In this document: positions 42,985-49,848 of the stretch, piece after piece | How positions within the stretch are numbered: the first letter of the stretch is position 1 | Layout of the letters: every line of letters starts with the position of its first letter | DNA from: Labilithrix sp. | Lineage (GTDB): Bacteria > Myxococcota_A > Polyangia > Polyangiales > Polyangiaceae | Reading direction: 5' to 3' | Assembly (NCBI GenBank): GCA_019637155.1 | Contig: JAHBWE010000013.1 | Span: 248,001 to 312,000, forward strand | DNA length: 64,000 bases | Made by a program: the position numbers and the translations under genes | Notes under the pieces: model-generated | What the model was told of the DNA's origin: nothing | The model's database searches: none | Seen by the model: the letters and a program-made list of their open reading frames with translations, nothing else

Positions 42985-45150
42985 CTACGGGGTCTTCTTC
43001 TTGCCCGTGAAGATCCGCATGATCGACGCCCAGAGCTTCCCGAAGGCGCCGCCCATCTTCAGGTTCGCCTTCCGCGCGGTGGTGCGGTGGACGAGGTGGG
43101 TGGGGCGCGCACCGGGGGAGAAGCCGTAGAGCGAGTACAGGTTGATCAGGTCCGTCACGAGGTCCGAGACGCCGCGCGTGTCGAGGTCGTGGGCCTGGCA
43201 ATACGAGTCCGGCTTGTTGCGGATCATGCATTTGGCGATGATCAGCATGACGTTCGGATCGATGAGCTCGCCGTTGCCGTCGAGGTAGTGCTTGTACGAG
43301 AAGAAGCGATCCGCCGGCGCGACCTCGGGCTGTCCGTCCTGCGTCTTCGGCGCGCGGAGCGAGTTGATGACGCCGTACTCGTGACGGAGGTACGACTCGA
43401 TCGTGTTGTTCTCGTCGGCGCGCTCGTACTCGATGAACTTGTGGAACGCGTCGTAGAGCGTCTTCGGGTTCGCGTACGCGCCGCTGATCAAATAGTAGAA
43501 GGTGGCGCCGAGCGAGTAGATGTCGGCGGGCCGGCCGACCGACTTCTGGATGCGCGCGCGCACGTTGGTCTCGCCCGTCTCGCGGTAGGGACGCGCGAGG
43601 ACGAGGCGCTTGCGCGCGCGATCGGCGTAGAGGATCGGGTAGCTCTCGCCGCGGTTGAAGAGCGAGAAGGTGTCGTTCTTCGAGATCTGGATATAGAAGT
43701 CCTCGAAGTACTCGACCTCGGGCACGCCCTGCGTGACGTTGACGAGGAGCTCGAGGACGTTCGTCTCCTGCTCCGGCGACTGGAAGAAGAGCGTGCCGGG
43801 GACCGACGCCTTCATCTGCGTCATGCCGAACGAGATCTCCTCGTCCGAGAGCTTCGCGACGTTGAAGTCGGCGAGGCGCACTTGCAGCGTCGAGCCGCGG
43901 AGGTTCGGATCGGGGATCCCGACGAGGACGTTCGCGGGCTTGATGTCGCGGTGGCAGATGTTGCGGACGAGGTGGGCGTACTCGACCGCGCTCGCGATCG
44001 GGATCATGTAGTCGAGCACGCGGAAGAGGCGCTCGCGCATGTCGGACGCGAGGAGGTCCTCCTTCGCGCCGCGGTTGCGGGAGCCCTTCAGGCGCTCCTC
44101 GAGGCTCATGTCGAGCTTCTCGAGGATCATGAACTCGGTCTCGCACTTGTCGCGGATCGACGGCGGGAGGATGTTGATGTCCTCGCCCTCGCCCGACGCG
44201 AAGAGCTCGACGATGTTCGGGTTGCCCTGCACGCGCTCGAGGAGCTCCATCTCCATCTGGAAGCGCATGTGGTCTTCTTCGCTGACGCCCTTCTGGAGCA
44301 TCTTGATGACGACCGCGCGGCGGAAGTCCGTCTTCGACTCGAGCCAGCGCTCTTCGCCGAGGTAGACCTTCGCGAAGCGTCCCGAGCCGAGCTCCACCGG
44401 CATGCCGCGCGCGTCGACGACGAACGAGTACGCGCGCGAGCGCTGCACCGTGAACGGCGACGCGCGCATCTCGCCCGGCGCCTGATCGGGGCGGAAGCCG
44501 ATCTGGCCTCCGGGGGCGGGCTGCGCGGCGCCGAGCGCGGGGTTGCTCTGCGGCGCGCCGGGGAACTGTCCGCTCTGCGGGACCTGCTGCTGCTGCATCT
44601 GCGGCGCGGCCTGGAGATCGCGCTGCGACGGGTGCACCGCCTGCATCTGCTGCGACGGGTGCTGCTGCTGCGCCGCCGGCATGTCACGCTGCGACGGGTG
44701 CTGCTGCTGCGGCGGATGCTGCTGGTACATCGGCGCCGGCTGATGATGCGGCTGCTGCTGCGCGTAGGGGTGATGGCCGCTCGGGGCGGCGGGCGCCGTG
44801 AGCGGCTGCGGGCCCGACGAGCCGCGCTCGACCGACGGCGCGTTCGGCGTGTGACCGAGGTTCGGCGGACGCGGGACCTGCTGCGACTTCGGCGGCTCGA
44901 CGACGTGACGCTGCGAGGAGCGATCGGGCTGCTGCGCGACCTGCACCGTCGGCGGCTGCGCGCCTTGAGGATTGAACGCGGTCGGCGTGTTGTTCTTGCC
45001 GAAGTGGACGCGCTGCGGCGGGGTCAGCTTCGACGGGACGGGCATGGGAGCCGACGCGTGCTGCTCCGAAGGAGCGGCGCCGACCGTCGTCTTCTCCTCG
45101 TCCTCGTCTTCGAGCCCCGGAGGAAGGGGCGGCGCATCCCGTTGGGTCAC
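42985..45150 (-). CDS. Ser/Thr protein kinase with Gln/Pro-rich N-terminus and long insert
   Basis: A 721-residue protein from GTG 45150, 11 bases after the upstream kinase stop. Residues 1-230 are low complexity with HPSQRD-type repeats (150-180). The kinase domain starts near 245, with a Gly-loop at 253-263, Lys283 and HRDIKPAN at 400-407. The metal motif is DFN (428-430) instead of DFG, and SPE (458-460) replaces APE. About 85 residues separate SPE from 'RPADIYSLG', where about 15 is normal, so a beta-rich insert sits after the activation loop. No membrane segment. Activity is likely but altered regulation is expected. Confidence 0.92.
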   Translation of the reverse strand: MTQRDAPPLPPGLEDEDEEKTTVGAAPSEQHASAPMPVPSKLTPPQRVHFGKNNTPTAFNPQGAQPPTVQVAQQPDRSSQRHVVEPPKSQQVPRPPNLGHTPNAPSVERGSSGPQPLTAPAAPSGHHPYAQQQPHHQPAPMYQQHPPQQQHPSQRDMPAAQQQHPSQQMQAVHPSQRDLQAAPQMQQQQVPQSGQFPGAPQSNPALGAAQPAPGGQIGFRPDQAPGEMRASPFTVQRSRAYSFVVDARGMPVELGSGRFAKVYLGEERWLESKTDFRRAVVIKMLQKGVSEEDHMRFQMEMELLERVQGNPNIVELFASGEGEDINILPPSIRDKCETEFMILEKLDMSLEERLKGSRNRGAKEDLLASDMRERLFRVLDYMIPIASAVEYAHLVRNICHRDIKPANVLVGIPDPNLRGSTLQVRLADFNVAKLSDEEISFGMTQMKASVPGTLFFQSPEQETNVLELLVNVTQGVPEVEYFEDFYIQISKNDTFSLFNRGESYPILYADRARKRLVLARPYRETGETNVRARIQKSVGRPADIYSLGATFYYLISGAYANPKTLYDAFHKFIEYERADENNTIESYLRHEYGVINSLRAPKTQDGQPEVAPADRFFSYKHYLDGNGELIDPNVMLIIAKCMIRNKPDSYCQAHDLDTRGVSDLVTDLINLYSLYGFSPGARPTHLVHRTTARKANLKMGGAFGKLWASIMRIFTGKKKTP

Positions 45151-45161
45151 GTGTTTTCCGC

Positions 45162-46727
45162 TCAGCTCCGGCACATCACGAGGATGTCGTCGCCACGGTT
45201 TGGAGCGACGACGACCACCTGTTGCGCCTCGGCGTAGGTTACCAGAAGCTGCTTCCCGTCCACGACAAAGAGGCGGCCCTGGGGCGTGCTCTGACCGAAG
45301 TAGAGGCTTACTTCGCCGAGCACTTGGCGACCGGTCGACACCATGTCGACGGTCATGTCTTGCGCCGCCGTGAGGGCGGGCGTCGGGTGCTTCCCGTGCT
45401 TCGCGACGAAACACGAGAGGCCCTTCACGTTGAGCGAGACGTTCGCTCCCGGGAGCATCGTGACGCGGAACCGCACCTGCTCGCCTGCCGCATCGGCGAA
45501 CGAGACGTCGAGCTTCTCGTGCACCTGCACGTAGCGAAGCCGTCGTTCGGTGTGCGGGACCGGCACCGCGGGGCGGCCGTTCGTCGTGCTCCCGGTGCTC
45601 GCCGGATCGGTCTCCGGCTTCGACGGCGGCGGTGGCGGCGCGGCCTTCTGCGGCTGCGGCGGCGGTGACGGCTGCGGCGCAGGGGCAGACTTCGGCGCGA
45701 GCGGCGTCGAGGCGATCGCCGGGAACTCGGCGGTGCGCTTCACGATGTCGATCGCGATCGGCGCGACGCTGTTCGAGGACTTCACCTTCAGCGCGTCCTT
45801 CATGCGCTGCGCGAACTCGGGCGCGGCGGCGATGCGGTCCTCGGGCCGCGCGAGGAGCGCCTTGCCGAGCACGCGCGCGACCTCGCCGGAGAGGCCGAGC
45901 TGCGCGAGGCGCGCGTTGACGAGGGTGTCGCCGCGGACGCGATCGTTGAAGGTCAGACGAACGTCCTCGTCGCCGAAGAGCACGGTGCCGCTCAGCATGA
46001 AGATGGCGAGGAGGCCGAGCGCGTACACGTCCGTGCGCGGGCCCTCCGGCGAGCCGCAGAGCTGCTCGGGCGCGGCCCAGCGCGGCGAGAAGAGCGCGAC
46101 GGTGCTCACCGACTCGCCGAAGCCGTCGTCGCGCGCTTTCTGGTTCGTCTTCACGTCGCTGTGGGCGATGCCGAAGTCGGCGAGCTTCGGGACGAGGTCG
46201 CCGCGGACGCGCGCGAAGAGGATGTTCGACGGCTTGATGTCGCGATGGATGATGCCGTGCTCGTGCGCCTCGGCGCAGGCGCCGCAGATGCCGTCGAGGA
46301 TGCTCATCGACTCCTGCGAAGGGAGCGCGCCGCGGAGCCGCACGTGCGACTCGAGGTTGCCGCCGTCGAGGTACTCGCTGACGTGGAACGGCGCGCCCTG
46401 ATCGCCGTCCGCTTCCTTCAGGTAACCGAAGTCGTAGATGCGGAGCGTGTTCGAGTGTTGCAGCTTCGAGAGCGCGAGCGCCTCCTGGAGGAAGTGCGTG
46501 TACGTCGCTTTGTAGACGGCGCGGCTGCCGCTCGTGGAGCCGGAGCCCTCGACGAGGGTGGTGCGAAGGAGCTTCACGCAGACGACGCGATCGAGCCGCT
46601 CGTCGGTCGCGCGGTAGATCGTCGCCATGCCTCCCGACCCGACGCGGTCGAGGATCGAATAGCGATCGAGCAGGCGCATGCCCTCGAAGAGCTCGGGCTC
46701 CCCTTGCCGGCGTTGATGCCGCCCCAT
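45162..46727 (-). CDS. Cytosolic Ser/Thr protein kinase with C-terminal beta domain
   Basis: The 521-residue kinase has a Gly-loop at 29-37, Lys52, HRDIKPSN at 161-168, DFG at 184-186 and APE at 219-221, so it is fully equipped. A Pro-rich linker (about 380-430) joins a beta-rich C-terminal domain (about 435-521) with no membrane segment. ATG 46727 is chosen because TAGGCT lies 7 bases upstream and the longer frame reads into the repeat region. It forms a two-kinase operon with the next gene. Confidence 0.93.
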   Translation of the reverse strand: MGRHQRRQGEPELFEGMRLLDRYSILDRVGSGGMATIYRATDERLDRVVCVKLLRTTLVEGSGSTSGSRAVYKATYTHFLQEALALSKLQHSNTLRIYDFGYLKEADGDQGAPFHVSEYLDGGNLESHVRLRGALPSQESMSILDGICGACAEAHEHGIIHRDIKPSNILFARVRGDLVPKLADFGIAHSDVKTNQKARDDGFGESVSTVALFSPRWAAPEQLCGSPEGPRTDVYALGLLAIFMLSGTVLFGDEDVRLTFNDRVRGDTLVNARLAQLGLSGEVARVLGKALLARPEDRIAAAPEFAQRMKDALKVKSSNSVAPIAIDIVKRTAEFPAIASTPLAPKSAPAPQPSPPPQPQKAAPPPPPSKPETDPASTGSTTNGRPAVPVPHTERRLRYVQVHEKLDVSFADAAGEQVRFRVTMLPGANVSLNVKGLSCFVAKHGKHPTPALTAAQDMTVDMVSTGRQVLGEVSLYFGQSTPQGRLFVVDGKQLLVTYAEAQQVVVVAPNRGDDILVMCRS

Positions 46728-46734
46728 GCGCGCA

Positions 46735-46740
46735 AGCCTA
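46735..46740 (-). promoter_or_regulatory. Putative -10 (TAGGCT) of the kinase operon
   Basis: On the minus strand TAGGCT ends 7 bases before ATG 46727 with no Shine-Dalgarno; a leaderless start is predicted. Confidence 0.45.
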
Positions 46741-46790
46741 TCGCGAAACCCCGAAATCCGGCCCAACAATGCGTAAGATTTCCTGCTTTC

Positions 46791-46886
46791 AACGTCGGGG
46801 CTTCGCCCCGACACCCCGTCCCAGACACGGCCCTCGCGCTGCGCGCTCGGGTTGCTTCGCAACCGCTTGCGCGGCCGCTTCTGGGG
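46791..46886 (+). repeat. Intergenic repeat family, copy A
   Basis: It begins with AACGTC plus the palindrome GTCGGGGCTTCGCCCCGAC, then CACGGCCCTCGCG, GGTTGCTTCGCAACC (another hairpin) and CGCGGCCGCTTCTGGGG. It is nearly the inverse of copy B 150 bp away. The 46741-47140 gap is otherwise without a gene I can support. Confidence 0.8.
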
Positions 46887-47140: not shown

Positions 47141-48301
47141 TCAGGCGCGCCAGAGGTACCAGCTGGCGACGGAGCGGTAGGGCTTCCAGCGCTCGGCGCG
47201 GCGCACCATCGCGGCGACGTCGGGGAGCTCGTCGCGCCGCTTTTTCGGGTGGAACAAGCGCGCGTAGCCCTTCTTGATCCCGTAGTCGCCGATCGGGAAC
47301 ACGTCGGGCCGGCCGAGGCGGAACAACAGCAGCATCTCGACCGTCCAGCGCCCGATACCGCGGACTAGGGTCAGCACCTCGACGATCGCGTCGTCCTCCA
47401 TCTTCGCGAGCTCGGCGAGGGTGGGGATCTCGCCGCGCTCGGCGCGCGTGGCGAGGTCCCGGAGCGCGGCGAGCTTGCTCGCGGAGAGCCCGGCCCTTCG
47501 GAGCTCGGCCTCGTCGAGCGCGAGCACGCGCCGCGGGTCGAGCTTGTTCTTCGGGAAGAGCGCGCGGACGCGTCCGAAGATCGTCGCGGCGGCGCGACCG
47601 TTGAGCTGCTGGTACACGATCGCCTTCGCGAGGGCGTCGAAGGTGCCCTCGCTCGGCTCGAGCGTGAGCGCGAAGTCGATCGACGCGATGTGCGCGCCGA
47701 GGACGGGATCGGCGGAGGTGAGGTGAGCGAGCGCGGCCTTCGCGTCGAACGGCAGCGCCGGCGCGTCGAACAGGAGCCGCGCGCTCTTCGGGTCGGACCA
47801 GCCCTCGAGCGCGAGGATCTTCTCCTTCGTCACGAGGCCGCCGTACGCCGAGAAGCCGCCCGGCTTGCCGCCGGACGCGAAGACGCGATGGCAGGCGACG
47901 AGGATCGGGAACGGGTTCGTCGCCATCGCGCGGCCGACCGCGCGCGCCGCGCTCGGGGCGCCGACGAGGCCGGCGAGCTCGCCGTAGGTCACGGTCTTGC
48001 CCGGCGGCACCGTCTGGAGCGCGCGGTACACCGTCGCGTTGAAGGGCGGGAGCGCGCCGAGGTCGAGCGGGACGTCCTCGAACGTCTGCGGCTCGCCGGC
48101 GAGGTGCCGCTGCACGGCCGCGATCGCCTTCGCTACCGATTTGGGCGGCTTCGTCTTTTCTCCTGATTCTTGCGCTTTCTTCCGCAGCCGCTCCACCGTG
48201 AGCTCCGCCGTCGCCTCGGGCAGCTGCAGCCACGTGACGCCGGCGTCGCTCCACGCGAGCGCGCACGTGCCGATCGCGGTGTCGAACGTCGTCCAGGGCA
48301 T
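47141..48301 (-). CDS. Fusion of O6-alkylguanine-DNA alkyltransferase and AlkA-type DNA glycosylase
   Basis: A 386-residue DNA repair protein. Residues 1-170 are an Ogt/MGMT domain with the acceptor Cys137 in ACHRV (usually PCHRV) and 'PPGKTVTYGELA'. Residues about 185-386 are a HhH-GPD glycosylase with hairpin 'TLVRGIGRWT' (311-320) and catalytic Asp339 in 'PIGDYGIKK'. The first half reverses O6-alkylguanine and the second excises 3-methyladenine, so both main alkylation lesions are covered by one chain. It is last in an operon with an SprT-like gene, 3 bp upstream. Confidence 0.93.
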   Translation of the reverse strand: MPWTTFDTAIGTCALAWSDAGVTWLQLPEATAELTVERLRKKAQESGEKTKPPKSVAKAIAAVQRHLAGEPQTFEDVPLDLGALPPFNATVYRALQTVPPGKTVTYGELAGLVGAPSAARAVGRAMATNPFPILVACHRVFASGGKPGGFSAYGGLVTKEKILALEGWSDPKSARLLFDAPALPFDAKAALAHLTSADPVLGAHIASIDFALTLEPSEGTFDALAKAIVYQQLNGRAAATIFGRVRALFPKNKLDPRRVLALDEAELRRAGLSASKLAALRDLATRAERGEIPTLAELAKMEDDAIVEVLTLVRGIGRWTVEMLLLFRLGRPDVFPIGDYGIKKGYARLFHPKKRRDELPDVAAMVRRAERWKPYRSVASWYLWRA

Positions 48302-48304
48302 GCT

Positions 48305-49390
48305 TCACCTCCGTGGCGGCAGCGCGAGGCCGCGCTCGGTCGGGCCCTCCTTCACGCCGCGGTGGATCACGATCTTGGAGCCGGCGTCCTTGCCGTGCGT
48401 GTACGCGTCGCTCCGGCGCTGCCCCGCGTAGCGGACGTGGCGCACGTGCGGGTGGCGCTGGCGGAACCAGCGCTGGAGGTCGCCGTCCGCGATCCACACG
48501 AGCCCCGCGTCGGCGCTCTTCTTCGCCTCGCGCGCGAGCTTGTCGCTCATGCCGCTCATCACGCCGGCGAGGAAGGTGCGCCGGTCGCGATCGCCGCGGA
48601 CGCCGTGGGCGACCTTGTGCTCGCGCCACAGCCGCTCCGCGGTCGCGATCAGGTAGCCGTGGACGTATTCGGCGATTTCTACGTTGTCTTCGGAACCGCA
48701 TATTTCGAGGATGCTCCCGCGTTTCCCGACGTCTTGGCGGTAGACCGACACCCAGATCGCCTCGACGAAGAAGTGTTTGCCGAGGAGGAGGGAGAGCACG
48801 CGCTCGGCCTCGGTCGTGCGGCCGGTGGGGGCGCCGAGGTGCTTCCACACGTAGCCCTGCGCCGCGCGGAGGCTCCTCAGCTCGAGGTTGTGCTTGAGGA
48901 GGAGCCTCTGCGCCGCCGCCATCGCGGCCTCCGCCTCGTTGACGTTCGGGCTCTCCGCGAGCGCGAGGAGCCGCGCGATGCGCTCGGCGACCTTCGCGTG
49001 CTCCGCCTTCGACGCCGAGCTCGCCGCGTCGCTCGGCATCCCCGCCGCGGCGCCGTCGATGCCGAGGCGCTCGCACACCGCGCGGAAGCGGGGGCCGTGC
49101 GGGGTCTCCTCGCGCTCGCCGAGCACCTCGTACACGTACTGGTGCGCCATCTCGTGCTTGAGCACCTCGACGACGACGCCCCACGGCTCGGTCATCACGA
49201 GGTGGCGCGAGAGCTCGATCGTCCGCGTGCCGGGCACCCAGCGTCCGAGGCGATGTCTGGTCGGGACGAGCTCCAGCTGCGGGATCGCGAGGCCGCCCTT
49301 GAAGTAGGTGAGGGCGAGGAGCTTGTATTGCTCACGTATCTCGCGGAGGAGGGCGTTCTCGAGCGCGGCCGCGGTCGCGTGGTCGGTCAT
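48305..49390 (-). CDS. SprT-like zinc peptidase fused to DUF2786
   Basis: The 361-residue protein has HEMAH at 79-83, an HExxH zinc site within an SprT/Spartan-like domain (about 15-115). It is followed by 'RIARLLALAESPNVNEAEAAMAAAQRLL', the DUF2786 signature (about 135-180), and a DUF7168-like tail. Spartan-type proteases remove DNA-protein crosslinks, which would fit the repair gene downstream. Function here is inference. Its ATG overlaps the cytochrome stop as ATGA. Confidence 0.88.
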   Translation of the reverse strand: MTDHATAAALENALLREIREQYKLLALTYFKGGLAIPQLELVPTRHRLGRWVPGTRTIELSRHLVMTEPWGVVVEVLKHEMAHQYVYEVLGEREETPHGPRFRAVCERLGIDGAAAGMPSDAASSASKAEHAKVAERIARLLALAESPNVNEAEAAMAAAQRLLLKHNLELRSLRAAQGYVWKHLGAPTGRTTEAERVLSLLLGKHFFVEAIWVSVYRQDVGKRGSILEICGSEDNVEIAEYVHGYLIATAERLWREHKVAHGVRGDRDRRTFLAGVMSGMSDKLAREAKKSADAGLVWIADGDLQRWFRQRHPHVRHVRYAGQRRSDAYTHGKDAGSKIVIHRGVKEGPTERGLALPPRR

Positions 49391-49848
49391 TTGGGAAACT
49401 CGATCGAGTAGACCCAGTCCGAGTACCGCGCGCGGTTGTCGTGGCACTCGACGCAGACCTTGGGCTTGCCGGAGAAGAGCACCTTGCCGGACGCGTCCCA
49501 CTCCGCCCAGAACCACGAGCCGTCGGGCTTCTTCTCCATCGCGGCGATGAGCGTGGTCGTGTCGCTCGAGAAGCTCTCCTTCACGACGATGGAGCCGGCG
49601 GGCCACGAGCGCACGATGTCGGGTCCGTCGAGCGCGGCGCTCATGTTCGGGTCGACGAAGACGTCGACCGCGTCCGAGTGCGAGGTGAAGCTCGGCCGCC
49701 GCTCGGGGAACGCCGGCGCCCGCCGCCACGACCGGAACCCGGCGCCGCTCGTCACCCGCGCGTAGAGGTCGTCCGCGCCGGCGGGATCGTCGTTCTGCCC
49801 GCACCCGCCCAGCGCAAGAGCGGCGATCGCGACGAACCGGCGAGACAT
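49387..49848 (-). CDS. Cytochrome P460-like haem lipoprotein
   Basis: A 153-residue exported protein with lipobox ALGGC (Cys16). The body follows the P460 family pattern: 'RSWPAGSIVVKESF', 'AAMEKKPDGSWFWAEW', then CVECH (132-136) for covalent haem and 'DWVYSI'. P460 proteins oxidise small nitrogen compounds or act in redox sensing. It overlaps the SprT-like gene by 4 bp, an unexpected partner for DNA repair. Confidence 0.87.
   Translation of the reverse strand: MSRRFVAIAALALGGCGQNDDPAGADDLYARVTSGAGFRSWRRAPAFPERRPSFTSHSDAVDVFVDPNMSAALDGPDIVRSWPAGSIVVKESFSSDTTTLIAAMEKKPDGSWFWAEWDASGKVLFSGKPKVCVECHDNRARYSDWVYSIEFPK

Follow-up and report, generated by a model that had tools for sequence, protein, structure and literature searches.

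A Polyangia Ser/Thr kinase family with DFN in place of DFG and an inserted beta domain, encoded beside a canonical kinase

Two adjacent kinase genes and their surroundings

The window (64,000 nucleotides of a Labilithrix sp. contig) carries two kinase genes side by side on its minus strand, and their features are collected in Table 1. One of them, running from a GTG at 45150 to a stop at 42985, encodes a kinase in which the DFG motif reads DFN (the DFN kinase), and its start is backed by a V-T-Q-R beginning that is conserved among close relatives. Despite the motif change and an inserted domain, the protein is still a Hanks-type kinase: it scores 70.2 bits against Pfam PF00069, above the gathering cut-off of 31.7, and residues 234-721, when modelled with AlphaFold2 (mean pLDDT 75.6), match solved kinases over 249 residues with a Z of 21.6 and an rmsd of 2.8. 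The Gly of DFG, which is replaced here, is usual in the Hanks family but no requirement for belonging to it. The model is of low confidence in the activation loop and in parts of the C-lobe, with a pLDDT below 50 at residues 201-220, 420-423 and 451-471. Immediately upstream, in a frame that ends 11 bp ahead of the GTG, lies a canonical Ser/Thr kinase (the partner), which matches PF00069 at 112.8 bits.

The flanking genes on the same strand are of other kinds. Downstream lies a cytosine/purine permease (PF02133; 40428-42638), whose cluster lies close to the two kinase genes in several Polyangiaceae loci as well. The frame at 47141-48301 unites an O6-methylguanine-DNA methyltransferase DNA-binding domain with an HhH-GPD base-excision glycosylase domain, the methyltransferase N-terminal domain scoring below its cut-off, and the frame at 48305-49804 joins a SprT-like domain to DUF2786 and DUF7168. 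A role in anti-phage defence was considered and rejected, the scores being 36.7 bits for MAD6 and 27.8 bits for PglW against curated cut-offs of 460 and 990; the PADLOC matches cover the general kinase region only and carry no cut-off.

Table 1. Features of the two kinase genes in window coordinates; fractions are counts over 52 full-length DFN kinases
Feature	Coordinates	Strand	Remarks
DFN kinase gene	42985..45150	-	721 aa, GTG start; PF00069 E 2.4e-19
N-terminal Pro/Gln-rich linker	44461..45150	-	residues 1 to ~230; varies among relatives
Gly-rich loop GSGRFAK	44368..44388	-	GSGR in 52/52
beta3 Lys (VIK)	44302..44304	-	K in 52/52
Catalytic loop HRDIKPAN	43930..43953	-	HRD 52/52; KP[AG]N 52/52
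DFN replacing DFG	43861..43869	-	52/52
Activation-loop Thr, invariant	43819..43821	-	aligns with PknB loop Thr; 52/52
SPE, subdomain VIII	43771..43779	-	SPE 45/52, APE 7/52
82-residue insert, six-stranded beta domain, barrel-like	43525..43770	-	from models; length invariant
DIYSLG, subdomain IX / helix F	43507..43524	-	D[IV]YSLG in 52/52
Second family-specific conserved stretch APADRFFSYKHYLDGNGELID, enlarged C-lobe	43258..43320	-	from conservation
NKPDSY, subdomain XI region	43201..43218	-	xxxDSY in 52/52
C-terminal tail, hydrophobic-basic	42988..43047	-	from sequence
Partner, canonical Ser/Thr kinase	45162..46862	-	frame to 46862; true start perhaps near 46724
Partner C-terminal beta-rich domain	45165..45542	-	beta-rich judged from sequence

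Catalytic core, inserted domain and distribution of the DFN kinases

Relatives were collected with two short peptide patterns taken from APADRFFSYKHYLDGNGELID, the window's copy of a hyperconserved stretch that enlarges the C-lobe of these kinases. Scanned across the named collection, these patterns returned 56 loci, whose titles are without exception myxobacterial, deltaproteobacterial or proteobacterial and include Labilithrix, Polyangiaceae, Kofleriaceae, Nannocystaceae and the isolate Paraliomyxa miuraensis; we take the name of the class, Polyangia, from these titles. Conservation was counted over 52 distinct full-length sequences (the window's and those of 51 loci), which were preferred to an earlier set of 62 rows because the latter contained duplicate sequences fetched twice. 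The five partial loci among the 56 stand outside this count; L090, L104 and L105 also read DFN, these three and L106 show the insert, and L109 ends short of the insert region. An acidic-KTTV motif near the N-terminus was rejected as a family feature and is regarded as local because it is present in only 6 of the 62 rows.

The first-pass annotation, which was made from the window alone, had described DFN for DFG and SPE for APE in a protein that keeps the catalytic Asp and Lys, and the alignment bears this description out: DFN is invariant among the relatives, SPE is present, and the beta3 Lys, the HRD Asp and the DFN Asp are all in place. SPE is unremarkable, being common to ordinary bacterial kinases such as PknB. 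The Glu of helix C is kept in 51 of the 52 DFN kinases and VPGT in all of them. In ordinary kinases the Arg of subdomain XI pairs with, and anchors, the Glu of APE; the Ser of xxxDSY presumably occupies that position, as placed by a hand alignment to PknB. The C-termini tend toward a short hydrophobic-basic tail, which reads [FW]DK[LF]FKK or nearly so in many Kofleriaceae-like loci and could serve in docking or in contact with the membrane.

Between SPE and DIYSLG, where a segment of about 80 residues had been noticed, the window's protein has 82, a length kept to the residue in all 52 sequences. Of 70 other kinases read from the same genome, 41 match the regular expression used; the span from SPE to DxxSLG is 19-21 residues in 39 of these and 35 and 39 residues in the other two. 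Structure prediction agrees with the beta-rich character first ascribed to the segment: predicted on its own, it comes out with high confidence as a beta domain of six strands (pLDDT 90.1, pTM 0.79), and in the whole model it follows the short helix behind SPE and precedes helix F. Of the original idea of a built-in regulatory module, the models thus support an autonomous beta domain, and its regulatory role is what we infer. The same first reading had allowed that the insert might be an assembly error if homologues lacked it. This did not hold, as all full-length homologues carry it, including those of three single-contig genomes (G081-G083). That the gene is a product of misassembly or of a frameshift, or a copy in decay, has no evidence in its favour and can be dismissed almost entirely, since the insert keeps its length in every sequence and occurs both in those single-contig genomes and in the named isolate P. 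miuraensis.

The insert appears to be private to this family. Its profile, searched against 377 genomes of the phylum, returned the same 13 genomes that carry the DFN kinase and no other host. A Pfam scan of 38 insert members found no family above chance (best E 0.04, from 2 of the 38), the best PDB sequence matches, at E 0.18 and 0.20, were taken as chance, and a Foldseek search of the PDB gave nothing at E 0.001 or better. The closest folds are small barrels of phage tail proteins, Uba1 and F1-ATPase (Z 6.4-8.5, with 6.4-7.3 for Uba1, and 8.5 at an rmsd of 2.5 over 82 aligned residues for the gene transfer agent chain 6tba_7A), and it is for these matches that we call the insert a barrel. 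At 7-15% identity they may reflect a common arrangement only, and we draw no function from them because Z values of 6-8.5 lie about in the range given by common arrangement. Kinship with the C-terminal domain of the partner was also rejected, a profile comparison having found none.

With one genome per species, 22 of the 108 genomes searched in the family and 24 of the 183 in the order have the DFN kinase. Across the class, where the best five candidates per genome were scored, it occurs in 57 of 317 genomes and 21 of 151 genera, with no listed match between E 1e-47 and the limit of 1e-15; the 13 carriers among the 377 phylum genomes all belong to the same class. Such a distribution supports a sharply bounded family, and with DFN and the insert both invariant the earlier suggestion of a distinct kinase subtype is upheld. 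The family is real, old and well bounded, and combines an unusual motif with an unusual inserted domain. The window's genome holds one full copy of it; among 70 other kinases read there (out of 150 matches that were scored), DFG is present in 63, DYA in one and DFN in none, and six do not match the pattern. This genome (G000), of 10.1 Mb, has at least 150 matches to PF00069 (150 of 314 candidates scored).

Pairing with the neighbouring kinase

The first-pass annotation overlooked the near-obligate neighbour kinase, with which the subject is no longer a single odd kinase but a module of two. After 7 of the 51 named loci were dropped for too little upstream sequence, 44 were testable, and in 43 of them a kinase on the same strand lies directly upstream of the DFN kinase; L067, the single locus without an adjacent partner, was counted as a miss. 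These partners have a common C-terminal domain after the kinase domain, for which no Pfam family scored above chance. Among the 317 class genomes, the DFN-kinase profile is found in 57, the partner-domain profile in 54 and both in 53, where independence would predict about 10 in a set of genomes that are themselves related; the partner-domain profile was built from neighbours of DFN kinases and could miss divergent relatives. In the four genomes with the DFN kinase only (G012, G048, G524 and G486), the gene starts no more than 34 bases from the contig end on its upstream side, and the sole genome with the partner domain only (G535) has a weak match, at E 9.1e-6. The partner-domain match lies on a different contig from the DFN kinase in G045 and G038, and G441 and G545, which have two full-length DFN kinases, each have two partner domains as well.

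Over 44 sequences, mean pairwise identity is 0.68 for the insert and 0.70 for the whole core of the DFN kinase, against 0.50 for the partner kinase and 0.34 for its C-terminal domain. The distances of the pair correlate at 0.93, which may come from shared ancestry and linkage only. The partner too departs from DFG in some lineages, reading DFS in 6 of 44 (window included): L092, L096, L097, L100, L101 and L102.

Because the DFN kinase is nearly always encoded beside an ordinary kinase, the pair probably acts as a single signalling unit. It is also conceivable, and to our mind quite unlikely, that the DFN kinase is active and independent, with one dedicated conserved substrate docked by the barrel and a neighbour that is merely co-transcribed. 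The invariant catalytic residues are compatible with such a kinase, as is the place where the barrel joins the modelled chain, after the APE helix and before helix F, near the P+1 region, and a dedicated substrate would account for the strong conservation; the adjacency, the joint presence and the duplicated pairs nevertheless point to joint function, and no further neighbour is kept across orders when the locus neighbourhoods are compared. Since the other neighbours differ between orders, no pathway can be read from the wider neighbourhood.

A candidate two-kinase module and its known counterparts

We propose that these genes encode a dedicated two-kinase module of Polyangia, to which we assign a probability of about 0.55: partner and DFN kinase would be made from adjacent genes, and the DFN kinase, as the second half, would be active and carry a docking or gating barrel beside its substrate groove. 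Its activity is judged most likely, on sequence grounds, because the residues for ATP, metal and phosphotransfer are all retained; the Ser found by hand alignment in place of the subdomain XI Arg speaks against it. The change from Gly to Asn should lock the motif "in", by analogy with what has been reported for Leishmania MPK10, so that control would move elsewhere. A first control point would be the invariant activation-loop Thr, probably phosphorylated by the partner, which might alternatively act by binding the DFN kinase. The second would be the barrel, which is predicted to follow the APE helix and lead into helix F, close to the substrate groove and P+1 loop, and which would most likely gate access and dock either the partner or a single specific substrate.

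A reading that we consider unlikely would make the DFN kinase a pseudokinase or an allosteric subunit, which would bind the partner through the barrel and activate it in this way, without phosphotransfer of its own. Pseudokinases usually lose the beta3 Lys, the HRD Asp, the DFx Asp and the catalytic-loop Asn, and all four are retained here in 52 of 52 sequences, none of which has lost the Lys, the HRD Asp or the DFx Asp, together with the activation-loop Thr in all and the helix C Glu in all but one. What such a subunit would explain is the loss of the DFG Gly and of the subdomain XI Arg in every sequence, the strict pairing with a canonical kinase, and an unusually high conservation of the whole core, as expected of an interface. 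For the two-kinase module, a bolder and decidedly tentative possibility is that the DFG switch has been given up and replaced, at the junction of activation segment and helix F, by the barrel as an on-off switch, occupied or released by the partner; if true, kinases would be controlled here in a way absent from the literature searched.

The DFN family provides a natural case in which the DFG Gly has become Asn across a whole old family with the other catalytic residues kept, and it allows direct tests of what this Gly does and of what can stand in for the DFG switch. It also presents a domain of fixed length after APE and ahead of helix F, a span of only about 20 residues in the other kinases read from this genome. 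Two kinases are, moreover, strictly paired here in bacteria with at least 150 of them, in which, to our knowledge, few kinase-to-kinase links have been established. No bacterial DFN kinase was found in the literature searched, in which coverage of subscription journals is thin.

Among known systems, the DFN kinase has in common with Hanks Ser/Thr kinases of the PknB type the N-lobe, the HRD loop, the aligned loop Thr, SPEQ and DxYSLG. It differs from them in reading DFN rather than DFG, in its enlarged C-lobe, and in the 82 residues that precede DIYSLG where PknB runs straight on from SPE; against the PASTA kinase model PknB/Stk1 (NF033483) it scores 57 bits for a cut-off of 450. The insert itself resembles, in the arrangement of a small beta-barrel, parts of Uba1 (ubiquitin E1) and of phage tails. 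The closest counterpart of the motif is Leishmania MPK10, which likewise has DFN for DFG with the Asp kept and which, according to the accessible part of its description, has aligned spines and an active-like conformation without loop phosphorylation (PMC4169501). That kinase is a eukaryotic MAP kinase controlled by a C-terminal auto-inhibitory tail, and the accessible text mentions no insert of the 82-residue type; since its activity is described there as weak until the tail is removed, DFN is in itself no guarantee of activity (PMC4169501). For the pair as a whole, the Pkn8-Pkn14 cascade of Myxococcus xanthus, as far as the accessible part of the source describes it, offers a precedent in which one bacterial Ser/Thr kinase acts upon another in a series, the parallel drawn here being one of arrangement (PMC6213207).
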